From Clostridia bacterium (GTDB lineage Bacteria; Bacillota; Clostridia; Christensenellales; Borkfalkiaceae): a stretch of DNA of 57,306 nt. Shown piece after piece: positions 2,116-57,155 of this stretch. Position 1 is the stretch's first letter. The number at the start of each line of letters is the position of its first letter. The stretch spans positions 1 through 57,306 of the forward strand of contig JAIDVM010000035.1 in assembly GCA_029059705.1 (NCBI GenBank), given 5' to 3'. The notes under the pieces were generated by a model. The model saw only the letters and a program-made list of their open reading frames with translations, was not told where the DNA came from and made no database searches. The position numbers and the translations under genes are program-made.

Positions 2116-2234
2116 CTTGGTTTAAAAACAAGCAAGACAAGGCGCGGCGCGTATTTACGAGGGCGCGTACACAGAAGTACGTAACCGAGTAAAACGCAAA
2201 CCGCAACGCCGTATTGCGCAGTTTATAAACCAAG
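2116..2234 (-). repeat. Intercistronic structured element, copy A
   Basis: A 119-bp member of the dispersed element described in the findings. The terminal arms CTTGGTTTA (2116-2124) and TAAACCAAG (2226-2234) are perfect 9-bp complements. Read on the minus strand, it begins 8 nt after the uxaA stop and ends 27 nt before uxaC. An inner stem GCG..TTTAC / GTAAA..CGC and an apical CGTAC/GTACG hairpin are visible. The tail CGCCTTGTCTTGCTTG is shared with the other copies. Confidence 0.85.
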
Positions 2235-2242
2235 CGTTTGTC

Positions 2243-3715
2243 TTAAAGCGTTACGCCCGTTTTAAATATTGCAATTTCTTTGGTGTGGTTAATTTCGTTT
2301 TTCGCGGGTTTTCCGTTTGCGGTTTCCACAATCAAATCAATAAGCTTTTCAAGCTGGATTTCAAAGTCGCTGTCCAAAACCGCGCCCGCGTTAAAGTCAA
2401 TCCAGCCCGCCTTGTTTTTGGCGAGGTCGGAATTAGTCGCAATTTTAAGCGTGGGCACGAACCCGCCGAAGGGCGTTCCCCTGCCCGTGGTGAACAGCAC
2501 CATGTGGCAGCCCGCCGCCGCGATGTTGGTAACCGCGCACATGTCGTTGCCCGGCCCGTTTAAAAGGTTTAAGCCCTTTTTCGTGACGAAGCCGTCGTCG
2601 AAAACCACGTCCTCGACGGGCCCCGAACCCGATTTTTGAGTGCAGCCGAGCGACTTATCCTCTAAGGTGGTTATGCCGCCCGCCTTGTTGCCGGGGGAAG
2701 GATTTTCATAAACGGTTTGCCCGTTTTTGCGGAAATAGTCCTTGAAATCGTTAATCAGCTTTACAACCTTTTCAAAGGTTTGCTTATCCTTTGCGCGGTT
2801 CATGAGTAGCTGTTCGGCGCCGAACATTTCGGGCACTTCGGATAAAACCGTCGTGCCGCCCGCCGCCACGATATAGTCGGAAAACAGCCCCACGAGCGGG
2901 TTTGCGGTTATGCCCGAAAGCCCGTCGCTGCCGCCGCACTTTAAACCCACTTTAAGGCATGATATGTCGCGTTCAACGCGCTTGTCATGCTTGATTTCGT
3001 CGGCGATTTTTTTGCAGAGCTTTACACCCTCCGCTATTTCGTCCTCAACCTCTTGGCAAACGAGAAATTTAATTCTGTTTTCGTTGATTTTGCCCAAGCC
3101 CTCTTTAAACTGAGCCATTTGGTTGTTTTCGCAGCCCAGCCCCAAAACGAGCACTCCGCCCGCGTTGGGGTGCCTTACGATTTTTTGCAGAATTAATTTC
3201 GTTCTTTCGTGGTCGTCGCCGAGCTGCGAGCAGCCGTAAGGGTGCGTGTAGGTAAAAATTCCGTCAAAACCCTTTTCGCCGTACTTTTCTTTAAACGTTT
3301 CAACGATTAACTTCGCCTGACCGTTTACGCAGCCCACGGTGGGGATAATCCAAAGCTCGTTTCTTATCCCGACGTCGCCGTTTGCGCGTTCGTAAACGTT
3401 TACTTTGCGCGGCTTTGCCGCTTTAAGCGCGGTGGGAACTTTGTTGTAAGAATATTCGAGGTTTTCCGAAAGGTTGGTTTTTACGTTGTGCGTATGCACG
3501 TGGCAGCCTTGGGGGATATCCTGCGTTGCGCACGCTATGGGGTTGCCGTATTTTATTACGTTTTCGCCCTTTTTGATATCCTTTAAGGTGAACTTGTGCC
3601 CCTTTGTTATATCCTCTTTAAGCGTTACCCCCTCGTATATGCCGCCCTTTTGCAAATCGCAAAGCGCAACGGCAACGTTGTCGAGAGGATTTATAATTAT
3701 GGTTTTTTTCTGCAT
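2243..3715 (-). CDS. uxaA: Altronate dehydratase
   Basis: UxaA dehydrates D-altronate to 2-keto-3-deoxy-D-gluconate (KDG). The 490-residue protein has the N-terminal SAF-like domain (LDNVAVALCDLQKG) and the large UxaA/galactarate dehydratase domain with PTVGCVNGQ, GCSQLG, LGLGCENNQ, KCGGSDGLSGI and the C-terminal GRGTPFGG. The open frame extends to 3865, but that part overlaps uxaB. ATG 3715 (MQKKTIII) has AAGGAG just upstream and matches the usual length. It lies 11 bp after uxaB in the operon and supplies the substrate of KdgK. Confidence 0.95.
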   Translation of the reverse strand: MQKKTIIINPLDNVAVALCDLQKGGIYEGVTLKEDITKGHKFTLKDIKKGENVIKYGNPIACATQDIPQGCHVHTHNVKTNLSENLEYSYNKVPTALKAAKPRKVNVYERANGDVGIRNELWIIPTVGCVNGQAKLIVETFKEKYGEKGFDGIFTYTHPYGCSQLGDDHERTKLILQKIVRHPNAGGVLVLGLGCENNQMAQFKEGLGKINENRIKFLVCQEVEDEIAEGVKLCKKIADEIKHDKRVERDISCLKVGLKCGGSDGLSGITANPLVGLFSDYIVAAGGTTVLSEVPEMFGAEQLLMNRAKDKQTFEKVVKLINDFKDYFRKNGQTVYENPSPGNKAGGITTLEDKSLGCTQKSGSGPVEDVVFDDGFVTKKGLNLLNGPGNDMCAVTNIAAAGCHMVLFTTGRGTPFGGFVPTLKIATNSDLAKNKAGWIDFNAGAVLDSDFEIQLEKLIDLIVETANGKPAKNEINHTKEIAIFKTGVTL

Positions 3716-3726
3716 TTTACTCCTTA

Positions 3727-6337: not shown

Positions 6338-6504
6338 TTAAATTTTTTCCCCTTTTAATTTATTCTCACGCAAATCTCGCCTATTCTGCGGCTGCGATTT
6401 GCCGTGATTTATAGGGCTACTCGCCCTCAGCCCGCAATCTTACGGGCAAACCTTATTTATAATTGCGGGAGCGATTACGCTAACCCCGACATTTCGATTA
6501 TTCT
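6338..6504 (-). other. Hairpin-rich intercistronic leader of the ABC ATPase gene
   Basis: On the minus strand this gap can form GCAAATC/GATTTGC (6370-6402), GGGC/GCCC (6414-6426) and GCCCG/CGGGC (6430-6447). The last competes with an 8-bp pairing CCCGCAAT (6431-6438) with ATTGCGGG (6462-6469), so two folds exclude each other. There is no T-run terminator. It could be a processing, stability or regulatory region. Confidence 0.4.
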
Positions 6505-6627
6505 AAGATTTAAAAGAAACGAGCAAGACAAGGCGCGCGAGCATTTTCAAGGGGAGTTTACTAAGGCGTAAATGACCCGAAGAAAAGCGGAGCGCAACGC
6601 AGTATTGCGAAGTTTATCTTAAATCTT
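6505..6627 (-). repeat. Intercistronic structured element, copy B
   Basis: A 123-bp copy with arms AAGATTTAA (6505-6513) and TTAAATCTT (6619-6627). The upstream arm overlaps the last codons of kduI (K-D-L). Its inner long hairpin pairs GCTTTTC with GAAAATGC, GGG with CCC and TTTAC with GTAAA. Shared blocks include CGCAATACTGCGTTGCG and CGCCTTGTCTTGCT. It has the same orientation as its host genes. Confidence 0.88.
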
Positions 6628-7483
6628 TTGTGGCAATGTTGTCCATATCGTCGTAAGTCTGGTTCTCCCCGCACATACCCCAAATGAAAGTGTAGTTGTG
6701 GGTGCCTATGCCCGTGTGAATGGACCAGCTGGGCGAGATAACCGCCTGCTCGTTGTGCATAAAAATGTGGCGCGTTTCCCGCGGGGTGCCCATAAGGTGA
6801 ATGACCGCCTCCGTTTCGGGAAGGTCGAAGTACATATAAACTTCCATTCTTCTTTCGTGGGTGTGGCTGGGAAGAGTGTTCCAGCCGCTGCCTTCGGCAA
6901 GCTCGGTCATGCCCATTGCAAGCTGGCAGCTTTCGCACACGTCGCCTATTATGAATTGGTTAATCGTGCGCTTGTTCATGCCCTCGGCGGTGCCCAAATG
7001 CCTTTGAACGCAATATTTTGCGTCCGCGGGGGCGGGTTTGCCCTCTACGGGCTGAATTATTTTAACCGTGGGATAGGTTTTGTGCGCGGGACAGGAATTA
7101 ATGTAAAATTTAGCGGGGTTTTTAGCGTCCTTAGAGGAAAACTCCACTTCCTTCGTGCCCATGCCGATATAAATTCCCTGCTTGTGCCCCAAAACGTATT
7201 TTTTGCCGTCGAGGGTAATTACGCCCTCGCCGCCGATATTAATTACGCCCATTTCCCTCCTTTCAAGGAAATACGCGGTTGCAAGCTCCTTAAAAGTTCC
7301 CAACGAAAGAGATTTTTTAACGGGCATTGCGCCGCCCGCGATTATTCTGTCCTGATGGGAATAGGTGAGAAGAATTTCGTCCTCCTCGAAGAGCTTTTTT
7401 ATGAGATATTTTTTCCGAAGTTCCTTTGTGTCGTAATTTTTGGAATCGTCGGGGTGATTTGAATAGCGAATGTCAAATTTCAT
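6614..7483 (-). CDS. kduI: 5-keto-4-deoxyuronate isomerase
   Basis: KduI isomerises 4-deoxy-L-threo-5-hexosulose uronate, the product of unsaturated galacturonides released by pectate lyases, to 2,5-diketo-3-deoxygluconate. The 289-residue sequence is typical: an N-terminal RYSNHPDD, FLERREMGVINIGG, and the cupin metal site around LPSHTHERRMEVYMYF and ISPSWSIHTGIGTHNYTFIWGMCGENQ. ATG 7483 follows AAGGAG. No kduD reductase was found in the window, so the next step must be encoded elsewhere or done by another reductase. Its last codons lie inside repeat copy B. Confidence 0.95.
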   Translation of the reverse strand: MKFDIRYSNHPDDSKNYDTKELRKKYLIKKLFEEDEILLTYSHQDRIIAGGAMPVKKSLSLGTFKELATAYFLERREMGVINIGGEGVITLDGKKYVLGHKQGIYIGMGTKEVEFSSKDAKNPAKFYINSCPAHKTYPTVKIIQPVEGKPAPADAKYCVQRHLGTAEGMNKRTINQFIIGDVCESCQLAMGMTELAEGSGWNTLPSHTHERRMEVYMYFDLPETEAVIHLMGTPRETRHIFMHNEQAVISPSWSIHTGIGTHNYTFIWGMCGENQTYDDMDNIATKDLR

Positions 7484-11034: not shown

Positions 11035-12933
11035 TTATGAACCCACCTTTACAAGCGAGGTTTTGTAATTGGTGACCGCGGCTTTAAGCGCGGCGATAAC
11101 GGCGTAGTTCGCGTCCTCGGTTGCGTTGTCGAAAGTCCATTTAAGGTCGCCGCCGCCTATTCTGCCCGCGTAGAGCATGACCTTGGTTTTTGCGACTTCC
11201 GCCGTGTCGACTTCATATTTATAAAAATCGGAAGCGGTGTCGAAATTGTTGTAGGTCTTACCGCCCTTAGTGGTTACTGACGAGGGAATTTGTTCGTCCC
11301 TCGTTGCAGCAGTATAGCAATCGAAGTCGGTAAACGAAGCGGGGCTGTCTTTGGTTCTTTCGATAAGCGCAAGCTTGCTTTGCGGGCAGTCGTATTTGTT
11401 GCCGAACGCCTTTATCATTCCGCCGACTTCTTTCGACAAAATACTTCCGCCGTCGCTTTTAATGTCGTGCGCTTGCATACCTATAAGCATAGGCATCATC
11501 GTCGCCGTGGAGCGGAAATAATTGTTTTCCACGAATACGGCAGCCCCTACGGCGGCGCCTACCCCGTACTTGGAGTTGCCGTCGAAATAATTGTTGTAAA
11601 TGTGGGTATGGGTGGAATTGCGCACTCTGGCGTGGCGGCTGTCCGAATGGTCGAACCAGTTATGGTGATAAGTTATATAGTCGCTGCCGCCGCTGCTTGC
11701 TGCGCTCGCATCCAAAAGACAACACTTTCCGCTGTCCCAGAAGTGGTTGTACGAAACCGTGCAATAAGTCGATTTTTTGATATCCAGCGAGCCGTCGCCC
11801 TTAGCTTGGTCTTTGTCGCCGCCGGCGTTGCCGTAAAATATGTCGAGATTGTGCATCCAAAGGTGACTGTTGCCCGTATCGACCGAAACGCCGTCGTCCA
11901 TAAAATTAATTATACCGAAATTTCTCAGCTCGACGTTTTTGCAGTTACGGATTAAAAAGCCGAAACCGTTTACCGTGCCGTCGCTGCCTACGCCTTCGAT
12001 AGTTATGTTAGAGGTTGCCTTTCCTTGCCCAACCGTGCCCGCGCCCTTTACCTGTATGCCTTCGGCGCTGCTTGAAATATGGTCGAGGTCGCTTAAATTG
12101 ACCGTGCCGACTATGCGGAAGCAAAGCGGTTCGTCCGATTTCTTTCTTGCATCCAGAATAGACTGGAAGCCCGTAACGGAAGCGCCGTTTACCGTGGCAG
12201 TAACAGTTTTTGCGGTTGCGGCGGTGACGTAAACGACCTGCGCGCCGCTTTTAAGCGTGCCGTCAGCATTGTAAGCCCCCGGAACGTTGCCGTCCGCAAA
12301 GGCGTAGCCCTCGCGGGAGTGCGCCGAAACCGTCATGGTTGCGGTGGATGCGAAGTTTTCCTTTTCCTCAGCGCCCTGAACGGGAACTACTTTAAGCGTG
12401 TATTTGCCCGCCTTTAAGCCGACCGCGTCGGCGCGGAAATTATTTTTATATTCGCGGACGAGGGGCGCGTCGAGCTTGACGAAACCGCCGCTTTCGCCCT
12501 TGCAGTAAACGTTGTACCAGGTTGCGCCCGAAAGCTTTTCCCATTCGACGTAAGCCGCCTCTAAATCGCCCTCGGCTTTGGTTATTTTAACCGCGCCCGC
12601 GACGGGGTTGTTGGTTATTTCGCCGCCTGCGGGCGGAGTAAATTCGCCGCTGCCCGTGCCGCCGTTTCCGTTGCCGCCCTGATTGCCGCCGCTTTCGCCG
12701 GGGACGTAGGTTGCGGGGTTATAGCCGCAGACGCACGTGCTTGAACCGGTTAAATCGTGTTGCGCGTAAGAGTTTTGGTCGATTTCGCCGTCGGCGGAAC
12801 AGACGTGCCAATGTTGGGATTGGTTAAAATCCCAGCCCTTGAAGTCGTGCGAGTGCGCGCAGCCCGCCGCGACGCCCATGGTGAGAATCGCCGCCGCTGC
12901 CGCAACCGCGGAACATTTTTTGAATTTTTTCAT
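11035..12933 (-). CDS. Secreted lipoprotein pectate lyase, PL1-like
   Basis: This 632-residue surface protein has a lipoprotein signal (VAAGC, Cys25), a His/Cys-rich segment (HDFKGWDF...HWHVC...CVCGY), a Gly/Asn linker, a fibronectin-III-like domain (about 105-205) and a right-handed beta-helix pectate lyase domain (about 235-570). The PL1 hallmarks are GDGSLDIKKS, WDSGKCCLLDAS and YHHNWFDHSDSRHARVR, with the catalytic arginine expected in the last. It cleaves polygalacturonate by beta-elimination, giving unsaturated galacturonides for the KduI/UxaC route downstream. The start has AAGGGG. Cellular anchoring by the lipid is inferred from the lipobox. Confidence 0.9.
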   Translation of the reverse strand: MKKFKKCSAVAAAAAILTMGVAAGCAHSHDFKGWDFNQSQHWHVCSADGEIDQNSYAQHDLTGSSTCVCGYNPATYVPGESGGNQGGNGNGGTGSGEFTPPAGGEITNNPVAGAVKITKAEGDLEAAYVEWEKLSGATWYNVYCKGESGGFVKLDAPLVREYKNNFRADAVGLKAGKYTLKVVPVQGAEEKENFASTATMTVSAHSREGYAFADGNVPGAYNADGTLKSGAQVVYVTAATAKTVTATVNGASVTGFQSILDARKKSDEPLCFRIVGTVNLSDLDHISSSAEGIQVKGAGTVGQGKATSNITIEGVGSDGTVNGFGFLIRNCKNVELRNFGIINFMDDGVSVDTGNSHLWMHNLDIFYGNAGGDKDQAKGDGSLDIKKSTYCTVSYNHFWDSGKCCLLDASAASSGGSDYITYHHNWFDHSDSRHARVRNSTHTHIYNNYFDGNSKYGVGAAVGAAVFVENNYFRSTATMMPMLIGMQAHDIKSDGGSILSKEVGGMIKAFGNKYDCPQSKLALIERTKDSPASFTDFDCYTAATRDEQIPSSVTTKGGKTYNNFDTASDFYKYEVDTAEVAKTKVMLYAGRIGGGDLKWTFDNATEDANYAVIAALKAAVTNYKTSLVKVGS

Positions 12934-27084: not shown

Positions 27085-27771
27085 TTAAAGCGGCTTTTTT
27101 CTCTCCAAACCCCTGCCGCGCGGGTACTTTTCGGGGGTGGCGCATACCTTTTTTATGGTAATAACCGTTCTCTTCCCGCAATTTTCGGGCAGCTCGTAGG
27201 TGCTTACGTTTTCAATCCTTCCACCCAGAATTTTTACGGCGTTAAGGCTTTCATCAAGCTCTTCTCCGCACTCGCCCTTATAGGCGACAAAGCTTCCCCC
27301 GACCTTAACGAAGGGCAGGCAATATTCGCAAAGAGTATTCAGCCTCGCAACCGCCCGCGCCGTCGCAAAATCAAACTTTTCCCTCAAATTTTCGCTGTGC
27401 GCCCCGTCCTCGGCGCGGATATTCAACACTTTTACACAGTCAAAGCCCAGCTTGTCCACAGCCGCTTTAAGAAATTCACATTTCTTCCCCGTGCTCTCAA
27501 TCAGCGTAAAGCTCAAATCGCCCCTTACAATCTTTAAAGGTATCGAAGGAAAGCCCCCGCCAGAGCCTATTTCAACCACGTTCGCGCCCTTAAAAAACGC
27601 TTTTTCGGGCAAAATACTGTCAAAAAAATGCTTTATATAAACTTCTTTTTCGTCGGTTATCGAGGTCAGATTATATTTTTCGTTATATTCTTTCAATAAA
27701 AGTCTGAAAGTTTCAAACTTTTCCTTAAAAATTTCATCTTTAAAATAACCGTTTAAATTGCCGTAATCCAT
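27085..27771 (-). CDS. rsmG: 16S rRNA (guanine527-N7)-methyltransferase
   Basis: RsmG (GidB) methylates G527 of 16S rRNA with SAM. The 228-residue protein has the family N-terminus (LLLKEYNEKYNLTSITDEKEVYIKHFFDS), the SAM loop VVEIGSGGGFPSIPL, LIESTGKKCEFL and ATARAVARLNTL. I start at ATG 27771 (MDYGN). Ahead of it, on the minus strand, TTGAAA-17 bp-TATAAT ends only 6 bp before the ATG, so the mRNA should be leaderless, and the longer open frame would lie upstream of transcription start. Firmicutes usually have rsmG behind mnmG; here it stands alone next to dnaN. Confidence 0.93.
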   Translation of the reverse strand: MDYGNLNGYFKDEIFKEKFETFRLLLKEYNEKYNLTSITDEKEVYIKHFFDSILPEKAFFKGANVVEIGSGGGFPSIPLKIVRGDLSFTLIESTGKKCEFLKAAVDKLGFDCVKVLNIRAEDGAHSENLREKFDFATARAVARLNTLCEYCLPFVKVGGSFVAYKGECGEELDESLNAVKILGGRIENVSTYELPENCGKRTVITIKKVCATPEKYPRGRGLERKKPL

Positions 27772-27777
27772 GCGGAA

Positions 27778-27806
27778 ATTATAACACAGGTTATCAACTT
27801 TTTCAA
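27778..27806 (-). promoter_or_regulatory. Promoter giving a leaderless rsmG transcript
   Basis: On the minus strand TTGAAA (27801-27806), 17 bp, TATAAT (27778-27783). The start codon begins 7 bp past the -10 box, which coincides with the expected transcription start. Confidence 0.75.
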
Positions 27807-27825
27807 CCTTAAAAGTTATTAACAT

Positions 27826-28133
27826 TCAACAAAATAAGTGGATATCTCTCTGAATTTTTTTAATTTTAAATATTTTCACTCCTTCTTTCAAAATAATTTC
27901 TTTGCTGCTTTTAAAATTAATAAACAGTTCAACATTTTATCAACAAAAAATTTAACAAAACAATCAACAATCAAAAGGCTTGTTTTTGTTGCATTTTCGG
28001 GGGTTTTAAGTTATTATATTAATGAAATAGGAAACATCCCTTCACCTATTAACAATTCCACAGTCACTACTAATAATACTTCTTTAATAATTTCTTAATA
28101 TAAAAAAATAAATAATACATACACGGAGTGAAA
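27826..28133. other. AT-rich rsmG-dnaN intergenic region
   Basis: About 308 bp of very AT-rich DNA with two weak DnaA-box-like sequences nearby (TTATCAACA at 27937-27945, TTATCAACT at 27791-27799) and the dnaN promoter (TTGCAT 27989-27994, 17 bp, TATTAT 28012-28017). No gene is supported. It could assist unwinding or be a secondary DnaA-binding region. Confidence 0.5.
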
Positions 28134-29240
28134 ATGAAAGTTGTTTGCGAAGGTATCGATTTATCCGATTCCGTTTTAAAAGTAGTAAAAGCTTGCTCTT
28201 CCAAAACCACAATTCCCGTTTTGGAGTGCATTAAGCTGTCGGCAAGAAACGACGAATTAAAGCTTTCCGCCACCGACGGCGAAATTTCCATATTAAAAAC
28301 TATTCGCGCCGAGGTTTACGAAGAGGGCGACGTGTGCGTCCCCGGCAGATATTTTGCCGACTTTATCAAAAAGCTCGAAGGCGTGCAGATTACCCTCAAT
28401 TCCGACGGTAAAAAAATGGACATCGTTTACGCCGACAGCCAAACGAGCATGCAGGTGCTTTCCGCCGACGATTTCCCCAAAATCGACACCGAAATTAACG
28501 AAAGCAGCTTTAAAATAAAGACTTCTGATTTGAAAAAATTCATAAGCGCCACCTCGTTTTGCTGCGCTTCCGACGATTCGCGCCCCATTTTAAAGGGCTG
28601 CCAGTTTTTGATTAACGGCGAAGACCTTTGCGTAACGTCGTTAGACGGCTTCCGCCTTGCAACCGTTACGGGTAAGGTGAGCGGCACTGCGGGCAATCTC
28701 GAAATAGTCTGCCCCGCGAGAACGTTAAACGAAATCGAAAAAATGCTGCCCGACGGCGACGACGAAACGGAAATCTTCATTCAAAGGGGAATTATCCTCG
28801 TCGCGGTGGAAAACACCGTTTTAACCTCACGTCTTTACGGCGGCGATTTCATCAAAAAGGACAACATTATCCCCAAATCGTTCGTAACCACGGTAACAGT
28901 AGAAAAGGATAAGTTAAAGGCAAGCATCGAGCGTGCCGCGATACTCGTCAGAAACGATAAAAACAGCCTCATAATTTTCGACATTTCGGGCGACAAAATC
29001 GAAATTTCGTCCGCGTCGGAAATAGGCAACGTTCAGGAACCGGTAAAAGCTCAAACGGACGGCAAGGACGTAAGGATAGCAATGAACTCAAAGTTCATTA
29101 TCGAGGCGGTAAACGCTTTGGAAGAGGACAAAATAGTCTTATCCTTCAACAACAGCGTTCAGCCCTTCATTTGCCAAAACGAAAAAAACAAGGACAAGCT
29201 CTATTTAATTTTGCCCGTGCGCACAAGCAATAACGCTTGA
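28134..29240 (+). CDS. dnaN: DNA polymerase III beta sliding clamp
   Basis: This ring-forming processivity clamp of replication has 368 residues in three clamp domains. Signature parts are MKVVCEGIDLSDSVLKVVKACSSK, LECIKLSARNDELKLSATDGE, SRPILKGCQF with LDGFRLA, and the C-terminal PLYLILPVR-type ending (KLYLILPVRTSNNA). ATG 28134 follows GGAG by five bases. The usual dnaA partner upstream is absent; instead rsmG diverges across an AT-rich gap. The next gene, rpmH, has its own promoter overlapping the dnaN stop. Confidence 0.97.
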   Translation: MKVVCEGIDLSDSVLKVVKACSSKTTIPVLECIKLSARNDELKLSATDGEISILKTIRAEVYEEGDVCVPGRYFADFIKKLEGVQITLNSDGKKMDIVYADSQTSMQVLSADDFPKIDTEINESSFKIKTSDLKKFISATSFCCASDDSRPILKGCQFLINGEDLCVTSLDGFRLATVTGKVSGTAGNLEIVCPARTLNEIEKMLPDGDDETEIFIQRGIILVAVENTVLTSRLYGGDFIKKDNIIPKSFVTTVTVEKDKLKASIERAAILVRNDKNSLIIFDISGDKIEISSASEIGNVQEPVKAQTDGKDVRIAMNSKFIIEAVNALEEDKIVLSFNNSVQPFICQNEKNKDKLYLILPVRTSNNA

Positions 29241-29266
29241 CTTTAAACTTTTTTCTATTATATAAT
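29237..29266 (+). promoter_or_regulatory. Promoter of the rpmH-rnpA-yidD-yidC-jag operon
   Basis: TTGACT (29237-29242, overlapping the dnaN stop) and TATAAT (29261-29266) are 18 bp apart. Confidence 0.7.
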
Positions 29267-29305
29267 TATTAATAAGGTTTATTTAAAATTTAGAGGAAAA
29301 CATAT

Positions 29306-29440
29306 ATGAAAAGAACTTATCAACCCAAAAAGAGACAGAGAAGCAAGGTTCACGGCTTCAGAAAAAGAATGGCTTCCACCGCAGGAAGAAAGGTTTTAAA
29401 GAGAAGAAGAAACAAGGGAAGAAAGCATCTTACGGCGTAA
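29306..29440 (+). CDS. rpmH: Ribosomal protein L34
   Basis: This 44-residue, highly basic protein has the universal L34 pattern: [19 protein letters not shown], then [12 protein letters not shown] and the ending [18 protein letters not shown] lies about 8 bp before the ATG. It is the first gene of the canonical rpmH-rnpA-yidD-yidC-jag operon. Confidence 0.97.
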
Positions 29441-29443
29441 TAA

Positions 29444-29770
29444 GTGAACTATCTCAGGATAAAGAAAAACGCCGATTTTCAAAAGCTGTTTAAAAAGGGG
29501 AAAAAGGTATTTTCCCCTTATATAACGTTATTGTATTTTCCCTCGCAAAAAACGTGCATGGGCGTCGCCGTTTCAAAAAAACACGGCAAAGCGGTTAAAA
29601 GAAACCGAATCAAAAGGCTTCTCCGCGCCGCGTTCCGCGAAACGTGCCCGCAGTTAAAAAAACCGTGTTCGTGCATCTTAATTCCAAAGGTTGCGGAAGA
29701 ATACAGCTTAAACGGCTTTAAAAAGAGCTTAAACGCATGCTTCACAAAGATAAACTCATGCGAAAACTAA
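29444..29770 (+). CDS. rnpA: Ribonuclease P protein component
   Basis: This 108-residue protein subunit of RNase P helps the catalytic RNA process tRNA 5' ends. The family signature appears as AVSKKHGKAVKRNRIKRLLRAAFRE, with the RNR motif and the N-terminal FQKLFKKGKKV. The GTG start lies 3 bp after the rpmH stop with no clear ribosome site, so translation is probably coupled to rpmH. Its 3' end overlaps yidD. Confidence 0.96.
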   Translation: MNYLRIKKNADFQKLFKKGKKVFSPYITLLYFPSQKTCMGVAVSKKHGKAVKRNRIKRLLRAAFRETCPQLKKPCSCILIPKVAEEYSLNGFKKSLNACFTKINSCEN

Positions 29771-30033
29771 AAGCTTTTAAAAGAAAATTCTTAAAGCCCG
29801 TATTCAAAATGCTTTTTATGCGGCTTATTGTATTTTATCAGAGAAATCTTTCGCGCCACACCTGCCTTTACGAGCCTACCTGTTCCGAATACACAAAGCG
29901 CTGCATAAACAACAAGGGCGTTTTGCTCGGAATTTTATACGGCGCTTGGCGGCTACTTCGGTGTAACCCCTTCTCTAAGGGCGGTTACGACCCCGCGCCC
30001 GAAAAATATTTCAGATTAAAGTGGGTTCTCTGA
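29737..30033 (+). CDS. yidD: Membrane protein insertion efficiency factor YidD
   Basis: This 98-residue protein has the YidD core IVFYQRNLSRHTCLYEPTCSEYTKRCINNKGVLLGILYGAWRLLRCNPFSKGGYDP, with the conserved cysteines and the GGYDPAP ending. It assists YidC/Sec-dependent membrane insertion at the inner face of the membrane. The start overlaps rnpA by 34 bp; ATG 29758 is an alternative. The basic N-terminal stretch (KLKAFKRKFLKPVFK) is longer than in most YidD proteins. Confidence 0.93.
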   Translation: MLHKDKLMRKLKAFKRKFLKPVFKMLFMRLIVFYQRNLSRHTCLYEPTCSEYTKRCINNKGVLLGILYGAWRLLRCNPFSKGGYDPAPEKYFRLKWVL

Positions 30034-30053
30034 AAAATAAACGGAAATAAATT

Positions 30054-31481
30054 ATGGAAATTTCAACCCTCCTTGCGGTTTCGCAAAACTTTATCGACTT
30101 CGCCGTCGACGGCATCCCTTCGGTAACGCTCGACTGGCTGGGCAACCTCATAAAATGGCTGTTCGACCTGTTTCAGGGCACGTACGGCGGCGCGATTTTA
30201 GGCACGGTTATCTTTACCCTCATTTTAAAGGTGATAACCAGCCCTATCGACATTTTTACGAGAGTTAAGCAAAAAAAGCAGTCGCTTTTAATGAAAAGCA
30301 TGCGCCCGCAAATGGAAAAGCTGCAAAAGCAGTACGCCAACGACAAAAACATGTACAGCCAAAAGGTTATGGAGCTGCAAAAGGCGCACGGCATAAACCC
30401 CCTCGGCGCGTGCCTGCCCATGATTGTTTCAATCGTAATCTTCATGATTGTAATAGGCGCGTTCTCAACCTATTCCAACTTTGCAACCCTCACCACCTAC
30501 AACAATATGGTCGGCGCTTATAACGGCAGCGTAGAAGCTTATATCTACGCAACCTATTCCGAGGAAGAGGCAATTTCTCTTTTGGAACTGAAAGGCGACG
30601 AAAAACCCGCAAACACGGTTAAAATCCCCCTCCACGGCGAAACGGAAGCGGCAACCTATTACGTAATCAACGAAAACAACTTTTTAATAAGGGTAAGAAA
30701 CACCGTCAACCCCGAGGGCGAGGCGGCGCATAAGGATAATTATTGGCTCGAAGAAGGCAGCTTTATAGTGGACTTCGACAAATTTTCGGCTTACCTTGCC
30801 AAGGTCGACAATTCCTTCACCGCGGACAAGCAGACGGAATTTGCAAACCTTTCCGAAGCTAAAAAATTCGAAAAGGTCGCGTCCTTCGTGCAGTTAAACG
30901 CAAGAACCGCCGCCGCCGACAACTATCACGAAAACCGCGGCTTCTCCGCGTTCGGCTGGATAGGCAACGTTTGGTATCCCGACAGTATGCTCAATAAAGA
31001 AGTGCCCGACTTTTCAAACTTCCAGTCGTCCATTTCGCGCGCGGTCGGCGCGGGCATGAGCACAACCTACGCCGCAAGCTATGCAGAGGTAACCTATAAC
31101 CTCGGCAACGGCATAGGCAACGAAATGAACACCTTCAACGGCTATTTCGTGCTCGTAGTGCTGTCAATAGGCACAATGTTCTTGCAGCAGTTTATAACAA
31201 TGCGCGCCCAAAAGGACGCAAACGAATTGAGCTCGGTCGACGGCTCGGCGGCAAAAACCAACAAGTGGATGATGATAATGATGCCGATTATCTTTGGTAT
31301 ATTCTCATTCTTCTATTCCGCCGCATTCTCGGTGTACATGATAACAAGCAACGTATTCTCGCTGGTTACGTCGCTTGTAATAAATAAAATAGTCGACGTT
31401 AAGTTCGAAAAGACGGGCGAGGCTTATCTCATGAAGAAAAAGAGAAACAGACAGCCTTCAAACGCAAAGAGGTTTAGATAA
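30054..31481 (+). CDS. yidC: Membrane protein insertase YidC (SpoIIIJ/Oxa1 family)
   Basis: YidC inserts and folds membrane proteins alone or with SecYEG. It is 475 residues, where the usual Gram-positive size is about 260. After TM1 (about 43-65) comes the cytoplasmic coiled-coil hairpin (KQKKQSLLMKSMRPQMEKLQKQY...MELQKAHGINPLGACLP), then TM2. An unusually large hydrophilic insertion of about 190 residues follows (about 150-345), then the remaining TM segments and a basic tail (MKKKRNRQPSNAKRFR). No lipoprotein signal is seen. The stop overlaps the jag start by one base (TAATG). Confidence 0.94.
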   Translation: MEISTLLAVSQNFIDFAVDGIPSVTLDWLGNLIKWLFDLFQGTYGGAILGTVIFTLILKVITSPIDIFTRVKQKKQSLLMKSMRPQMEKLQKQYANDKNMYSQKVMELQKAHGINPLGACLPMIVSIVIFMIVIGAFSTYSNFATLTTYNNMVGAYNGSVEAYIYATYSEEEAISLLELKGDEKPANTVKIPLHGETEAATYYVINENNFLIRVRNTVNPEGEAAHKDNYWLEEGSFIVDFDKFSAYLAKVDNSFTADKQTEFANLSEAKKFEKVASFVQLNARTAAADNYHENRGFSAFGWIGNVWYPDSMLNKEVPDFSNFQSSISRAVGAGMSTTYAASYAEVTYNLGNGIGNEMNTFNGYFVLVVLSIGTMFLQQFITMRAQKDANELSSVDGSAAKTNKWMMIMMPIIFGIFSFFYSAAFSVYMITSNVFSLVTSLVINKIVDVKFEKTGEAYLMKKKRNRQPSNAKRFR

Positions 31482-32365
31482 TGGAAGAAAACAACATATT
31501 CACAGGCAAAACGCTCGACGAGGCGATTAACGAAGGCTTAATCGAGTTAAGGCTCACCCGCGACGAGGCGGAAATAACCGTTTTGGAAGAGGGCAAAAAG
31601 AAGCTCTTCGGCTCGGTTAAGGCAAAGGTTCAAATAACCAAAAAAAGCTCCGACGGCAAAAAAGCACAGGTTTTTATCGAAAAACTGCTCGAAATTATGG
31701 GCGTTAAGTCCGAATGCGAAGTGCTTTCCGACGACGCGTCGTTGAGCATCGAAATTAAAACTCCCGCCTCGGCAAGAGTAATCGGCAAGCGCGGCGACGT
31801 TCTCGACGCAATCCAAACGATAGCCGGCGCGTATACCAACATAGGCAAGGACGAGTATAAAAAGGTAGTCGTCGACTGCGAAAATTACCGTGCCCAGCGC
31901 GAGCAAACCCTTAAAGAGCTTGCCTTAAAGCTTGCGGCAAAGGCTATCGAAACGGGCAGAAAAATGACTTTGGAGCCCATGACGCCCTACGAAAGGCGCA
32001 TAATCCACGCCACGCTCATGGACAACGACCAAATTAAAACGATATCCGAGGGCACCGAGCCCTTGCGCTATATCGCGGTAATCCCCTACAACGCAAAGCC
32101 CTACGACAGGGGCGTGCGCTACGGCGAAAAAAGACCGCAGGGCAGGGACAACCGCTTCGGCGACAGAGACCGCAGAGGTAACCGCGGCGACAGGCGCGAC
32201 GGCGGAAGAGACAGAGGCGGACGCGGCGGCGAAAGGCGTCCTTCTGGCGGCGGCAAACCCCGCGGCAAAAAGGAAATTTACTTCGGCGCGTTCCTCGGCA
32301 ACAGCAAAAACACCGAAACGGAAGTAAAAGAAACCCCCGTAAACGAAGAAGAAAACAAGGATTAA
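31481..32365 (+). CDS. jag: Jag/KhpB RNA-binding protein
   Basis: This 294-residue RNA-binding protein, partner of KhpA in other Firmicutes, affects cell division and elongation. It has a Jag N-terminal domain (FTGKTLDEAINEGLIELRL...LFGSVKAKVQI), a KH domain (IEIKTPASARVIGKRGDVLDAIQ) and an R3H domain (EPMTPYERRIIHATLMDND...SEGTEPLRYIAV). A distinctive Arg/Gly/Asp-rich tail (about 208-265, many RGG-like units) and an acidic end follow. Such RGG tails are uncommon in Jag and probably add RNA binding (inference). It is coupled to yidC. Confidence 0.94.
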   Translation: MEENNIFTGKTLDEAINEGLIELRLTRDEAEITVLEEGKKKLFGSVKAKVQITKKSSDGKKAQVFIEKLLEIMGVKSECEVLSDDASLSIEIKTPASARVIGKRGDVLDAIQTIAGAYTNIGKDEYKKVVVDCENYRAQREQTLKELALKLAAKAIETGRKMTLEPMTPYERRIIHATLMDNDQIKTISEGTEPLRYIAVIPYNAKPYDRGVRYGEKRPQGRDNRFGDRDRRGNRGDRRDGGRDRGGRGGERRPSGGGKPRGKKEIYFGAFLGNSKNTETEVKETPVNEEENKD

Positions 32366-40429: not shown

Positions 40430-41941
40430 ATGGAAGAGAACAAGGTTTTAACGGCAGAGGAAGAAGAGAGAGAGCTTGCCGAGCAGGCGCGTATCCGCCG
40501 CGAAAAGCTGCAAAAGCTTTCGGGCGAGGGAAAAAATCCGTTCGTTAAGGTAAATTACCCCGTTTCGGCGCGTTCGGAAGAGGTTAAGGCGGATTTTGAA
40601 AAATTCGACGGCAAAGAGGTTTGCCTTGCGGGAAGGTTAATGTCCCGCCGTATTATGGGCAAGGCTTCGTTTTGCCACATTCAGGACGGCGCGGGGCTTA
40701 TTCAGCTTTACGTAAAGCGCGACGACGTGGGCGAGGACGATTACGCTTCATTTAAAAAGGATTACGATTTGGGCGATATCGTGGGAATAAAGGGCTACGT
40801 CTTTAAAACGCAGACGGGCGAAATTTCGGTTCATTGCTCGCACATAGAAATGCTGACGAAGTGCCTTTTGCCGCTGCCCGAAAAACAGCACGGGCTTAAG
40901 GACACGGATATCCGCTACCGCAGAAGGGAGCTGGATTTAATCGTAAACCCCGAAGTTAAAAACACGTTTAAAAAGCGTTCGCAGATAATTTCGGCGGTGC
41001 GCGAATTTTTGGACGCGGCGGGCTTTTTGGAGGTTGACACCCCCGTTTTGAACACGATTGAAATAGGCGCTTCCGCCCGCCCCTTTAAAACAAAGCACAA
41101 CGCGCTGGACATAGACATGTATTTGCGCATCGAAACCGAGCTTTATTTAAAGCGGCTTATTGTCGGCGGCTTCGAACGCGTTTACGAGGTTGGCAGAATT
41201 TTCAGAAACGAGGGCATGGACGCCTTCCACAACCCCGAATTCACCACGGTGGAGTGCTACGCTTCCTATCTCGATTACTTCGATATGATGGATTTGGTGG
41301 AGAAGATGTACGCCGAGGTTGCAAAAAAGGTTTGCAAAACTACGGACGTAACCTATCAGGGCACGGAAATTCACCTTGGCGGCAAGTGGGAAAGGCTGAC
41401 CATGAAGGACGCGGTTAAAAAGTATTCGGGCGTAGATTATAACGACTGGGCTACCGACGCGGACGCGCGCGCCTGCGCGAAAAAGCTGGGCGTTGAGGTT
41501 GAAGAGGGCGAAAGGGCGACCAAAGGGCACGTTTTAATTGCGCTTTTCGACGCGTTTGTCGAGGACAAGCTTGTGCAGCCCACCTTTATTTACGATTATC
41601 CCGTTGAAAATTCCCCCCTTGCAAAGCGCAAGGAGGACGAACCGCTGTTTACGCAGAGGTTTGAATATTTTATTTGCGGGCACGAGTTCGGCAACGCTTT
41701 TTCAGAGCTGAACGACCCCATAGACCAAAGACAGCGCTTTGTAAAGCAGGTTGAGGAAAAGCGCAGGGTTGAGCCCAAGTGCAACGCGCAGGTGGACGAG
41801 GACTTTGTGACCGCTTTGGAATACGGCTTGCCTCCCACGGGCGGGTTGGGCTTTGGCATAGACAGGCTTGTTATGCTTTTGACCGACAGCGCCACAATAC
41901 GCGACGTCCTCTTGTTTCCTACAATGAAACCTAAAAAATAA
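40430..41941 (+). CDS. lysS: Lysyl-tRNA synthetase, class II
   Basis: LysS charges tRNA-Lys. The 503-residue protein has an N-terminal OB-fold anticodon-binding domain (VCLAGRLMSRRIMGKASFCHIQDG) and a class II catalytic core: motif 1 around FLDAAGFLEVDTPVL, motif 2 VYEVGRIFRNEGMDAFHNPEFTTVE, motif 3 GLGFGIDRLVML. The gene ends at the start of structured element copy C; its stop codon lies within the upstream arm. No T-box is visible in the greA leader. Confidence 0.97.
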   Translation: MEENKVLTAEEEERELAEQARIRREKLQKLSGEGKNPFVKVNYPVSARSEEVKADFEKFDGKEVCLAGRLMSRRIMGKASFCHIQDGAGLIQLYVKRDDVGEDDYASFKKDYDLGDIVGIKGYVFKTQTGEISVHCSHIEMLTKCLLPLPEKQHGLKDTDIRYRRRELDLIVNPEVKNTFKKRSQIISAVREFLDAAGFLEVDTPVLNTIEIGASARPFKTKHNALDIDMYLRIETELYLKRLIVGGFERVYEVGRIFRNEGMDAFHNPEFTTVECYASYLDYFDMMDLVEKMYAEVAKKVCKTTDVTYQGTEIHLGGKWERLTMKDAVKKYSGVDYNDWATDADARACAKKLGVEVEEGERATKGHVLIALFDAFVEDKLVQPTFIYDYPVENSPLAKRKEDEPLFTQRFEYFICGHEFGNAFSELNDPIDQRQRFVKQVEEKRRVEPKCNAQVDEDFVTALEYGLPPTGGLGFGIDRLVMLLTDSATIRDVLLFPTMKPKK

Positions 41942-42061
41942 AACGCATATAAGCTGCGCAATACTTCGTTGAACTGCGGCAACCCTCAGTCATTTACTTC
42001 CGTGTAAACTCCTTCGGGTTTTCCTCGTTCGCCTCGTCTTGCTTGCTTCTCTGCGTTTTAT
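41938..42061 (+). repeat. Intercistronic structured element, copy C
   Basis: 124 bp with arms ATAAAACGCA (41938-41947) and TGCGTTTTAT (42052-42061), a perfect 10-bp pair that includes the lysS stop. The inner hairpin pairs AACCC with GGGTT and TTTAC with GTAAA; the CTGCGCAATACTTCGTTG and CGCCTCGTCTTGCTTG blocks match other copies. It lies between lysS and a decarboxylase gene in the same orientation. Confidence 0.88.
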
Positions 42062-54337: not shown

Positions 54338-54376
54338 CAAAAAGAGCGGAGTGTATCTCCGCTCTTTTGTTTTTTA
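54338..54376 (+). terminator. Ferredoxin terminator
   Basis: AAAAGAGCGGAG / CTCCGCTCTTTT, a perfect 12-bp stem with a TGTAT loop, then GTTTTTT. Confidence 0.9.
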
Positions 54377-54381
54377 CGGCA

Positions 54382-54618: not shown

Positions 54619-54642
54619 CCGATTTTAAATAAGGTTTAAAAA

Positions 54643-55305
54643 ATGTTAAACGACGGAGAGGTGCTCGAAGAGTTTTTCGGGGACAAAAAAATTATTCAAA
54701 ACGTAAATTTATACCGCTTCACTTCCGACAGCATACTGCTGTCTAAATTCGCGCGGGCAAAATTTAAGGACGACGTTGCCGACTTCTGTTCGGGCAGCGG
54801 CGTTGTCGGCTTTCATTTTTTGTGCCTTAACCCGCAAATAAATTCGCTTACGCTTTTCGAAATGCAGCCGAAACTTGCGGATATGTCCCGCCGAACCGCC
54901 GAAATGAATAATTTCGGCTGCAAAATAAACTGCTGTAAATTACAGGAAATAGGCAAGGAATACGACGATAAATTTTCGCTGATTTTATGCAACCCGCCCT
55001 ATGAAAAAGGGGGCTTTGAAAACGCCGATTACGAAAAGGCGGTGTGCCGCAAGGAAATTACTTTAACCTTAAATGAAATTGCCGAAGCCGCGTTTAAAAA
55101 ACTTAAATTCGGCGGGCGGCTTGCCATTTTAAACCGCGCGGACAGGGCGGCGGAGCTTGTGTACACCTTAAAAGAGCGCGGGCTGGAAACAAAGCGCTTG
55201 CAATTCGTTAGCGGGGTAGAGGGCGCAAAGCCTTACCTTGTCATGGCGGAGGCGGTTAAGGGCGGAAAGCCCGGCGTGGAGGTTTTGCCCCAAACAGTAA
55301 ATTGA
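54643..55305 (+). CDS. yabB: tRNA1(Val) adenine-N6 methyltransferase-like protein (YabB)
   Basis: This 220-residue SAM-dependent methyltransferase of the TrmN6/YfiC type has an N-terminal LYRFTSDSILLSKFAR, the SAM motif VADFCSGSGVVGFHFL, the acidic LFEMQPKLADMS and the amino-methylation motif LILCNPPYEKGG, then LTLNEIAEAAFKKLKFGGRLAILNRADR. It probably methylates an adenine in tRNA. It corresponds to yabB, which in Bacillus lies between ricT and rsmI. AAGG lies nine bases before ATG 54643. Confidence 0.9.
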   Translation: MLNDGEVLEEFFGDKKIIQNVNLYRFTSDSILLSKFARAKFKDDVADFCSGSGVVGFHFLCLNPQINSLTLFEMQPKLADMSRRTAEMNNFGCKINCCKLQEIGKEYDDKFSLILCNPPYEKGGFENADYEKAVCRKEITLTLNEIAEAAFKKLKFGGRLAILNRADRAAELVYTLKERGLETKRLQFVSGVEGAKPYLVMAEAVKGGKPGVEVLPQTVN

Positions 55306-55306
55306 A

Positions 55307-57034
55307 ATGAAGAATAATTACTTAAAAAGATTTGTACGGTATTACAAGCCGCACCGCAAGCTGTTTGCAATCGACATGGTTTGCGCGTTTATTATTTCGG
55401 CTTTCAACCTCGTTTATCCGTACGTCACAAAGGAAATAATAAATAATTTTGTGCCCAACAAGCTTTTATTTTATCTTTTGGCGGGGTTGGGCAGTCTTTT
55501 GCTGCTTTATATAATTAAAGCGGTTTTAAACTATATTTTGCAGTATTGGGGGCACCTTGTGGGCGTGCGTATGCAGGCGGATATGCGCCGCGAGCTTTTC
55601 GGGCATCTGCAAAAACTGCCTTTTTCTTACTTCGACAACAACAAAACGGGCGTTATCATGAGCCGCATGACTAACGACCTGTTTGAAATTTCAGAGCTTG
55701 CGCATCACGGCCCCGAGGACGTGTTTTTGTCGCTTGTAACCTTAATCGGCGCGTTTATCATGCTTGCCACGATAAACGTTTACCTCGTTTTAATAGTGTT
55801 TGCATTCGTGCCGATAATTGTGGTTTGCGCCGTTCTTTTAAGAAAGAGAATGAACAAAGCCTTTGCGGAGGTGCGCGTGGCGCAGGCGGAAATAAACGCC
55901 GACATAGAAAGCGCCGTTTCGGGCGTGCGCGTTTCCCGCGCGTATTGCGCCGAGGAGCACGAGGCGGAAAAGTTTGCGGCGGGCAACAAACGGTTTGTTA
56001 AGGCAAAGAGCGGGCAGTATAAGGTGATGGGGCAGTTCTTTTCGTCCATGAACTTTTTTATGGATTTTTTATATTTTGCCGTTTTGCTTGCGGGCGGGCT
56101 GTTCTTTTATTATAATTTAATCGACGTAGGCGAATTTACGGCGTTCGTTTTATATATAACAACCCTCATTGCGCCCATTCGCACGCTTGTTAATATCTTT
56201 GAACAAATCCACGACGGAATGACGGGCTTTAAGCGCTTTTGCGACGTAATGGACGTGCCCGCGGAAGCTGAAAGCGAAAACGCGTTGATGCCCGAAAAAA
56301 TGACGGGCGAAATAGTGTTCGATAACGTGACATTTGGGTACGGCGACGGGAAAGAGGTAATAAAAAACTTTTCGATGCGCGTGCCGGCGGGCAAAACCGT
56401 GGCGCTCGTAGGGCCTTCGGGCGGAGGCAAAACCACGGTGTGCCATTTAATTCCCCGCTTTTACGAAATAGACGGCGGGCAGATTACCGTGGACGGAATT
56501 TCGATAGACAAGCTCAGCCGCGCGTTTTTGAGGAAGAATATAGGTATAGTCCAGCAGGACGTGTTTCTGTTTAACGGCACCATTAAAGAAAACATTGCCT
56601 ACGGCGACTTTGACGCGACGGACGGGGAAATTATCGAAGCCGCGAAAAAGGCGAACATACACGAATATATTACAAGTCTGCCGCAAGGCTACGACACGTG
56701 CGTGGGCGAGCGCGGCGTAAAGCTTTCGGGCGGGCAAAAGCAGCGCGTTTCGATAGCGAGGGCGTTTTTAAAGAACCCGCCCGTGCTCATTTTGGACGAG
56801 GCGACCTCGGCTTTGGACAACGTGACGGAAATGGCGATACAGCAGTCCCTTTTCAAGCTTGCGGAAGGCAGAACCGTTTTAGTCGTTGCGCACAGGCTTT
56901 CCACCGTAAAAAGCGCCGACGAAATTATGGTTGTAACCGCAAACGGCGTTGCCGAGCGCGGCACGCACGAAGAGCTTATGGCTTTGGGCGGGATATATAA
57001 GGGGCTTTACGAATATCAATTTAAAAACGCTTAA
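55307..57034 (+). CDS. ABC exporter, fused membrane and ATPase domains
   Basis: This 575-residue type IV ABC half-transporter (MsbA/LmrA-like) has six TM helices (about 18-310) and an ATPase domain (about 338-575): Walker A VGPSGGGKTT, Q loop GIVQQDVFLF, signature VKLSGGQKQRVSIARAFL, Walker B VLILDEATSALD and switch His in VVAHRLST. It has no partner gene beside it, so it may be a homodimer. The substrate is unknown (drug, lipid or peptide). It starts one base after the yabB stop. Its stop codon touches the arm of element copy D. Confidence 0.93.
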   Translation: MKNNYLKRFVRYYKPHRKLFAIDMVCAFIISAFNLVYPYVTKEIINNFVPNKLLFYLLAGLGSLLLLYIIKAVLNYILQYWGHLVGVRMQADMRRELFGHLQKLPFSYFDNNKTGVIMSRMTNDLFEISELAHHGPEDVFLSLVTLIGAFIMLATINVYLVLIVFAFVPIIVVCAVLLRKRMNKAFAEVRVAQAEINADIESAVSGVRVSRAYCAEEHEAEKFAAGNKRFVKAKSGQYKVMGQFFSSMNFFMDFLYFAVLLAGGLFFYYNLIDVGEFTAFVLYITTLIAPIRTLVNIFEQIHDGMTGFKRFCDVMDVPAEAESENALMPEKMTGEIVFDNVTFGYGDGKEVIKNFSMRVPAGKTVALVGPSGGGKTTVCHLIPRFYEIDGGQITVDGISIDKLSRAFLRKNIGIVQQDVFLFNGTIKENIAYGDFDATDGEIIEAAKKANIHEYITSLPQGYDTCVGERGVKLSGGQKQRVSIARAFLKNPPVLILDEATSALDNVTEMAIQQSLFKLAEGRTVLVVAHRLSTVKSADEIMVVTANGVAERGTHEELMALGGIYKGLYEYQFKNA

Positions 57035-57155
57035 AAATTGCAGATAAACTGCGTTATGCTTTGTCAAGCTCCGCTTTTCTTCGGGTCATTTACGCTCAGT
57101 AAACTCCCCTTGAAAATGCTCGCTTTCCTCGCCTAACTTGTTTCTATGCAATTTT
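57034..57155 (+). repeat. Intercistronic structured element, copy D
   Basis: 122 bp with arms AAAATTGCA (57034-57042) and TGCAATTTT (57147-57155). The first base of the left arm is the last base of the ABC exporter stop. The inner stem GCTTTTC/GAAAATGC, GGG/CCC and TTTAC/GTAAA is nearly identical to copy B. It ends 18 bp before the rsmI start, in the same orientation. Confidence 0.88.

Follow-up and report, generated by a model that had tools for sequence, protein, structure and literature searches.

Results

Copies of the element in the window and in related genomes

The window (the whole stretch of DNA that was analyzed, 57,306 nucleotides) carries four copies of a hairpin-forming element, the kduI gene, and a region with rsmG, dnaN, yidC, and jag (Table 1). 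Based on gene content and GC skew, this region is probably the neighborhood of the replication origin. The element comprises a conserved core of ~105 bp (ATAAAC...GTTTCT) and closing arms of about 8–11 bp, giving a whole hairpin of ~120 bases. The four full copies reported in a preliminary description were all verified in coordinates and arms. When each was compared with 200 dinucleotide shuffles, no shuffle folded as well (z scores of −4.9, −4.7, −4.9, and −3.5 for copies 1 through 4). The 5' arm of copy 3 contains the stop codon of the upstream gene, and an orthologue of copy 1 with like arms was found in G021 (L145:1479). No match to copy 2 was obtained among phages and plasmids by distant blastn, and a search of viral_contigs with one 25-base pattern also gave none.

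Table 1. Elements, genes, and origin region of the window
Feature	Position	Strand	Description
Copy 1	2116..2234	-	5' arm CTTGGTTTA 2234-2226; model core 2227-2123; 3' arm TAAACCAAG 2124-2116
Copy 2	6505..6627	-	5' arm AAGATTTAA 6627-6619, identical to kduI coding end; 3' arm TTAAATCTT 6513-6505
kduI (KduI/IolB family)	6614..7483	-	Final codons supply the 5' arm of copy 2
Probable origin neighborhood	27085..32365		Gene content and skew
rsmG	27085-27825	-	
dnaN	28128-29240	+	
yidC	30054-31481	+	
jag	31481-32365	+	
Copy 3	41938..42061	+	5' arm ATAAAACGCA 41938-41947; 3' arm TGCGTTTTAT 42052-42061; arm class A
Copy 4	57034..57155	+	5' arm AAAATTGCA 57034-57042; 3' arm TGCAATTTT 57147-57155

The source genome (G000, 1.5 Mb) was searched with a model built from the core only, with the arms left out. 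The search yielded 53 matches at E ≤ 1, and 51 reached E ≤ 3.3e-11. Copies were spread over many contigs and not arranged in cassette arrays. Copies were present in 84 of 93 congeneric genomes. Under 200 bp, multi-copy, and foldable over its whole length, the element has the dimensions of an ERIC/RPE-type repeat.

Position and strand

The upstream gene was on the same strand in 44 of 51 own copies, and in 37 of 51 its stop codon fell between −5 and +18 nt relative to the core. All 33 junction copies were on the strand of the gene. This gene-end position and the shared strand favor selection on a folded RNA, namely an intercistronic element of the 3' UTR with a role in protection, processing, or termination of the upstream message, its arms changing by ordinary compensatory substitution. 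Against this explanation, some copies follow terminator-like hairpins or precede oppositely oriented genes, and no known structured RNA in Rfam matched the element (window at the gathering threshold, copy 2 at E ≤ 1).

Element strand and GC skew both change over across the probable origin of the window; in the left half, the skew is slight and of both signs (−0.10 to +0.05). Strand and skew agreed in 35 of the 39 regions compared, a count that includes regions of G050 and G068 that are not independent because they are largely orthologous. In 10 of 11 multi-copy contigs, all copies were on one strand. Copies lie mostly on the leading strand; strand likewise tracks gene direction, and gene direction and replication strand are weakly separated.

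Arm pairing and arm classes

Arms were scored in 51 copies (50 strong copies and one weak copy, C20, E 0.02), with offsets of up to two bases permitted; strong copy C9:68227, whose arms pair by eye, and weak copy C24:78519 were left out. All 50 scored strong copies had arms complementary within the copy, with 5–9 Watson-Crick pairs of nine (nine pairs in 20 copies, eight in 16, seven in 6, six in 7, and five in 1), and the weak copy had four. The possibility that most copies lack complementary arms, named in advance as a refutation, was looked for genome-wide and did not hold.

By contrast, the statement that arms differ completely between copies was not borne out, because arms fall into classes. 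Class A (AAAACGCA) accounted for 25 of 51 own copies, including copy 3, and a GCACGGTT-like, or B-like, class for 12, including copy 1; the impression of wholly different arms arose from a sample of four. There is no constant terminal inverted repeat, since arms are class-specific or copy-specific. The 14 copies outside both classes scored 7–9 with their own arms, and their cross-pairs reached at least 7 in 21 of 182 combinations. Among 225 distinct copies, nearly all from the genus and a few from three other families, own arms paired at 8–9 of 9 positions in 121, compared with 229 of 4,983 random cross-pairs. In a four-unit tandem in G002, only one unit had matching arms.

Covariation in the core and arms

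In the core, 98.5% of cells were paired and 16 of 20 pairs were altered on both sides, bearing out the inner-stem compensation claimed earlier. In sister comparisons, made between species with one genome per species, stems differed at 23 of 1,060 positions and loops at 37 of 613. This strong covariation, with stems slower than loops, also favors the folded RNA, as do compensated arm differences seen by eye at the lysS site (GGCTTTG/CAAAGCC in G019 and GGCTTCG/CGAAGCC in G075). However, G.U was not in excess over A.C. The core contained 23 G.U and 20 A.C among 2,396 cells. The arms of the 225-copy set contained 19 G.T and 46 A.C, or 12 and 23 when each cluster was counted once, a rough count in which single-linkage clustering fused 145 of 205 copies. 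As a control, the G.U:A.C ratio in the acceptor stems of 19 tRNAs from the same loci was 8:1, although the tRNA finder itself accepts G.U. Without a G.U excess, the element does not resemble an RNA under selection; patchy sites, described below, also speak against that explanation, which we consider unlikely.

Comparison of 13 sites shared by sisters gave 15 one-sided pair changes (11 producing a mismatch and 4 producing G.T) and only 4 two-sided ones; the latter all occurred in a single copy, possibly a conversion in its own right. These results indicate that mismatches are not corrected at once.

Host coding sequence as the 5' arm

Three genes of the source genome (kduI, rpsJ, and map) supply their conserved coding end as the 5' arm, and its reverse complement forms the 3' arm. 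The kduI gene ends KDLR*, with its stop codon inside the core of copy 2. A host-coded kduI arm was present in G000, G021, and G064; the copies in G021 and G064 are orthologous with like arms, and the three cases may represent one ancestral event. The rpsJ gene ends IKIKL* at all 30 loci read, and map ends LTL* in 30 of 30. The sequence ACACTTTAA itself stands at the map end in G014, G013, and G066, where the element is missing; pairing of the map arm requires one bulged base. The coding side is constrained and the 3' side matches it, a polarity consistent with copying from the coding side. An arm at rplO (ribosomal L15) was considered as a fourth case and not counted; rplO in G050 and G068 ends EVIS*, an end not shared with other species, and the gene itself may therefore have been altered by the arm.

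Two observations could mean that the arm is made at insertion: 5' arms encoded by the host are matched on the 3' side, and arms of classes and singletons are alike in length. In this scheme, a staggered cut in the target would join the core hairpin such that the complementary strand of ~9 target bases is carried across to the far side, like P nucleotides. However, arm classes recur at unrelated sites, and the 37 of 51 own copies in the two shared classes lie at different sites, indicating that arms usually travel with the element; flank copying is therefore not the rule at every insertion. Moreover, no conversion of target to arm was visible at 12 sites with a copy in G009 and none in G064, in much-diverged intergenic DNA. 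An arm made at insertion appears quite improbable.

Turnover between related genomes

At fixed sites in sister species, the core had been replaced as a unit with a portion of each arm, both arms changing together. For G050:C39 and G068:C1:230065, the flanks were 87% and 96% identical and the core 71%. Hairpin replacement was also found between G050:C23:81900 and G068:C14:55503 (upstream flank 96%), and between G050:C23:87278 and G068:C14:50076 the inner part was swapped and the outer stem kept. Sites were patchy, with the element after lysS at 12 of 56 loci and after kduI at 14 of 44. Among 17 G009 copies whose flank was located in sampled G064 DNA, 12 had no copy there.

Size, copy number, intergenic position, and element-less sites resemble those of ERIC/RUP-type elements as outlined in PMC2229807, and one possible short direct repeat (AGTAAAA) was seen by eye at G050:C6. 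Such features would suit a conventional MITE, with terminal inverted repeats read by a transposase in trans and target duplication. The arms, however, offer a transposase no constant sequence, the 12 copy-less G064 sites showed no consistent target duplication in their much-diverged intergenic DNA, and no autonomous partner with these ends turned up incidentally among the element matches. We regard a MITE as decidedly improbable.

Candidate mobilizers

Y1 transposase was found in 7 of 25 genomes searched, including 4 of 16 of the genus (G001, G003, G012, and G015, with 1–9 copies of the element) and G029 of another family (25 copies). No match was obtained in the copy-rich G000, G006, G009, and G014 (28 to 68 copies). 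Y1 distribution therefore tracks copy number poorly, and a Y1/RAYT mobilizer was rejected on the four copy-rich genomes checked. The source genome encodes six tyrosine recombinases. A retron msr/msd origin (a1/a2 arms) was also rejected: the sole PF00078 match in G000, on C4, is far below the cut-offs of retron models. This reverse transcriptase adjoins an Avd-like protein and resembles the diversity-generating type; the core-only search found no element copy on C4.

Variable arms on a conserved fold, a position after stop codons, and a replication-tied strand bias would also fit a recombination site recognized by structure, such as an integron attC or the REP hairpin on which a RAYT acts. The lack of a Y1 match in the four copy-rich genomes and the scattered copies argue against this. 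In addition, attC sites have fixed AAC/GTT core-site letters, whereas the P2 stem of the element is variable (AAGC/GCTT, AAAC/GTTT, and ATAC/GTAT). Such a site is very unlikely.

Discussion

We tentatively favor, at a little less than an even chance, a dispersed, non-autonomous, ERIC/RPE-like palindromic DNA repeat, a hairpin that is homogenized by gene conversion and in which fold-back or template-switch synthesis sometimes remakes an arm from the host flank. Pairing would be maintained at the DNA level. Copies would overwrite one another through ectopic gene conversion, both sides of a stem changing at once because the whole hairpin is converted; the copies in shared arm classes need no new arm synthesis. 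Replication could generate a new matching arm where insertion or deletion had put the core beside unrelated host sequence: the hairpin's 3' end would prime on the 5' side of the same hairpin (by fold-back or intrastrand template switch) and copy ~10 nt of the 5' flank. Perfect RNA-hairpin stems and multi-base compensatory changes have been explained by DNA copying through template-switch mutations (PMC8794818). That account concerns RNA genes, whereas here a dispersed repeat would use host coding sequence as template. The preliminary description had proposed either selection on a folded RNA or single-stranded DNA form, or an insertion mechanism with inverted copying of the flank; the G.U and A.C counts speak against RNA selection, and kduI, rpsJ, and map lend support to a DNA-level fold and to inverted copying.

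Integron attC sites conserve structure over sequence, follow stop codons, and fold strand-specifically. The element shares the fold conservation and stop-codon position but has no cassette array and no fixed core-site letters. Rickettsia palindromic elements (RPEs) are known for inserting within genes. The element, unlike them, lies mostly after stop codons; it resembles RPEs in size and long stem-loop, these being summarized as palindromes of 105–146 bp with predicted long stem-loops (PMC2229807). The same overview describes ERIC (IRU/RU-1) of enterobacteria as a 127-bp dispersed, mostly intergenic, non-autonomous repeat forming a long hairpin; its terminal repeat is 7 bp, its ends are TA, and its target is duplicated (PMC2229807). 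The element is likewise dispersed, long-hairpin, and non-autonomous, but its arms are class- or copy-specific and sometimes host coding sequence. REP/REPIN sequences are introduced as abundant palindromes in intergenic DNA (PMC2817692, PMC3116915), REPs being given as 20–40 bp (PMC3733652) and linked to RAYTs, unlike the ~120-base element of these Y1-lacking copy-rich genomes. Dispersed, repetitive hairpin-forming elements of sponge mitochondria have constrained stems, with stem sequence conserved and loops variable (PMC2800124), whereas stems of the element change in matched blocks. No named family with such arm behavior was recognized in the literature, mainly at the level of titles and abstract openings.

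In this hairpin, which recurs dozens of times in some uncultured Clostridia, self-matching arms that in some cases mirror the neighboring gene suggest an ability to write its own partner strand. It is conceivable, if on balance doubtful, that a mobile hairpin rebuilds its closing arm by inverted copying of adjacent host DNA, including coding DNA, and so stays closed wherever it lands, with spread and orientation tied to the leading strand. Covariation is normally taken as proof of functional RNA. This family combines extreme covariation with strict Watson-Crick pairing, no G.U excess, blockwise DNA replacement, and host-mirroring arms. If the explanation is true, the family would be a natural system for measuring the creation and repair of inverted repeats by replication, and would call for caution in covariance-based RNA discovery.

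Distribution and arms of the hairpin repeat

The window covers the entire contig C29 of the genome G000, which comprises 1.51 Mb in 41 contigs. The four copies of the ~120-bp hairpin repeat were confirmed in the sequence, with positions and arms as the preliminary description had them, and the folding of each was beaten or equalled by none of 200 shuffles of that copy. With blastn, copy 2 gave 41 matches in G000, and in most full-length matches homology was confined to query positions 24-126, with the arms outside. A covariance model, R1, was built from 25 cores nearly without arms, so that the arm tests are independent of it. R1 gave 53 matches in G000 (51 strong). At E<=1e-6 it matched 84 of 93 congeneric genomes, with up to at least 42 matches per genome among those listed. 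At E<=0.01, among 41 genomes, G000 and 22 of 24 other genus members were matched, as were 3 of 16 genomes from the order's other families (G029, 25; G036, 5; G027, 2). Exact matches to a segment of the class A element occurred in 17 stretches; the named records were uncultured Clostridia or Clostridiales MAGs, with sheep colon and roe deer cecum in the titles of two. The element is thus a dispersed hairpin repeat found throughout the genus. Three or four copies stand in tandem at three loci (L143, G002:C3; L144, G019:C25; L080, G001:C2); of the four units in the G002 array only one has matching arms, an arrangement that slippage duplication of the core and 3' arm would give.

Arms were scored in 51 copies of G000 (50 strong and one weak). 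Complementarity within copies, as claimed from the window, was found in all 50 strong copies, with 5-9 of 9 Watson-Crick pairs. The view that arms differ completely between copies was a product of the four-copy sample, because arms form classes when sorted by a simple rule. Classes recur among the G000 copies, which indicates that arms usually travel with the element; the classes of relatives are different ones, with CCAACGGGT/ACCCGTTG and GCGGCGTG/CCCACCGC as examples from G014.

Arm classes among the 51 G000 copies, and features of the window
Feature	Window position (strand)	Sequence	Occurrence
Class A arms, including window copy 3	41938-42061 (+)	AAAACGCA	25/51
B-like arms, including the weak copy and window copy 1 (CTTGGTTT)	2116-2234 (-)	GCACGGTT	12/51
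Other arms, including window copies 2 and 4	6505-6627 (-); 57034-57155 (+)		14/51
Probable replication-origin genes rsmG, dnaN, yidC, jag	27085-32365		between minus and plus copies
Companion repeats	~6440-6500	e.g., GGGTTAGCGTAATCGCTCCCGCAA, GTCATTCTGAGCGAAGCGAAGAATCT	

The companion repeats often adjoin the element and lie in the flanks of many G000 copies, giving intergenic regions the look of small-repeat mosaics.

Gene junctions and host-coded arms

By simple open-frame calls, a same-strand gene lies upstream of 44 of the 51 copies, and its stop codon falls -5 to +18 nt from the core in 37. Class A frequently reads TAA-AACGCA, the stop codon forming part of the arm. Orthologous junctions with and without the element, a comparison suggested in the preliminary description, were compared at gene 3' ends across the genus. 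KduI was identified by Pfam, and lysS, rpsJ, map, and rplO are presumed names, recognized from the proteins. At sites picked since G000 is filled there, the element was present in 12 of 56 lysS, 14 of 44 kduI (one a remnant), 5 of 30 rpsJ, and 2 of 30 map loci, on the gene's strand at all 33 filled junctions. At lysS, arms vary among species, at times by compensated steps judged by eye (G019/G075; G023/G052). A longer, different foldable sequence (near TTCACAAAAAT...CGTGA...) lies 3' of lysS in G014, G006, G002, G003, G045, and G016 (L159, L157, L224, L215, L225, and L231), with no Rfam match at the gathering threshold.

Arms can be host coding sequence. Among kduI ends, readable in all but one of 44 loci, the gene's coding end forms the 5' arm in G000, G021, and G064, as GAT TTA A[GA]A TAA (GAC TTA AAA TAA in G021), and the same end occurs in element-free genomes, e.g., G008, G012, and G065. 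The 3' arm is the reverse complement of this end, single mismatches aside; the G.U of G000 and the C.A of G021 fall at codon differences. The three 3' flanks look alike and may thus reflect one ancestral event. The 5' arm at G000 rpsJ, AAA CTT TAA, comes from the IKIKL* end kept in 30/30 loci, and the 3' arm TAAAGTTTG pairs with it at 9/9 positions. At map in G000, the arm ACT TTA AT, with one bulged base, spans the stop of the LTL* end (30/30 loci); ACACTTTAA is also present in G014, G013, and G066, where the element is absent at that point. The best indication of a 3' arm following the 5' flank comes from these three genes.

Pairing and hairpin replacement

The compensated variation described for the window extended to 134 aligned matches, 122 of them distinct, drawn from 99 loci, with standard pairs in 98.5% of 2396 cells compared with 82.7% after shuffling. 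In 16 of 20 core pairs both sides had changed; the covariation score was 0.448 versus 0.163 for shuffled and <=0.121 for slid alignments, in an alignment that was fitted to the model and so favors its structure. An RNA under selection is expected to tolerate G.U over A.C. However, core cells held 23 G.U and 20 A.C (of 2396), and arm cells 19 G.T and 46 A.C (12 versus 23 counted once per cluster), whereas acceptor stems of 19 distinct tRNAs from the same loci, a small control in which the tRNA finder itself accepts G.U, gave 8 versus 1. The element's pairing is near-strict Watson-Crick, and, with no excess of G.U over A.C, unlike that of an RNA under selection.

Two pairs of sister species were compared, G050/G068 (94% identical over 390 bases at lysS) and G009/G064 (91%). 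By reading of alignments, 15 of 20 G050 copies have a counterpart at the same site in G068. In one case flank identity is 87% and 96% against just 71% for the core, the inner arm bases having been replaced along with the core; in a second, core and inner arm bases are likewise replaced next to an upstream flank of 96% identity; in a third, the inner hairpin is altered (core 78%) and the outer stem kept. Such replacement is the pattern expected from ectopic gene conversion of a hairpin and explains much of the two-sided change. The 13 other shared sites differ at 37 of 613 loop and 23 of 1060 stem positions; 15 stem pairs changed on one side and four on both, all four in a single copy that may also have undergone conversion. 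Of 28 G009 copies, 17 had a flank match in 400 kb of G064, where 12 were absent, four shared, and one represented by a mini-hairpin, the result of a deletion at a TCG repeat; no clean target duplications were readable at the G009/G064 sites.

The mini-element (L310 near 12255-12273, G064:C2) consists of arms and the P2 stem with a 3-nt loop, and G009 retains the full copy. Internally deleted remnants occupy the kduI site in G050 and G068. A small second palindrome, either AAGGCT..AGCCTT or AAGCCG..CGGCTT with CGGTACGA or a close variant after it, lies within some copies at GT^CA (L280, G068:C14:47119 and 51787; L008, G000:C19; L105, G000:C1; L160, G017). Its stems vary yet self-match, and it is missing from the two G050 orthologues.

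Strand preference and replication

On 10 of the 11 G000 contigs that carry more than one strong copy, the copies share a single strand. The eleventh is the window, with minus copies at 2-6.6 kb and plus copies at 42-57 kb, between which GC skew changes from weak and mixed to clearly positive. Gene content and skew suggest that the window spans a probable replication origin, which would place all four copies on the leading strand. For G068 (15/15), G050 (14/15), and G064 (6/9), the element strand agreed with the sign of GC skew in 35 of 39 stretches 8.5-20 kb long, the first two sets being largely orthologous. Gene direction also correlates with element strand and skew. The four G000 copies on multi-copy contigs that have an opposite upstream gene still keep the contig's strand, as do most such copies in relatives (exceptions, L327 and L328 of G064). 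Strand preference thus follows both replication and gene direction.

Maintenance and classification

Y1 transposase gave no match in G000, G006, G009, or G014 and was matched in four other genomes of the genus and three of other families. G000 has a single reverse transcriptase, next to an Avd-like protein, and six tyrosine recombinases; none of these enzymes was linked to the element. At L433 (G000:C4), the reverse transcriptase and Avd-like protein stand beside a tyrosine recombinase as a probable diversity-generating retroelement.

We infer that pairing would be maintained at the DNA level, by hairpin conversion together with copying of the 5' flank through fold-back or template switching. 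In the published template-switch model (PMC8794818) the 5' base decides how a pair is corrected, and a leading-strand bias in Escherichia coli is cited there, which fits the polarity seen here. Against template-switch copying, one-sided changes were left uncorrected at sister sites, and the comparison, of one genome per species, showed no strain-level events. Although ERIC and RPE repeats have a constant terminal repeat and this element does not, it can be filed as a variant of the ERIC/RPE kind.
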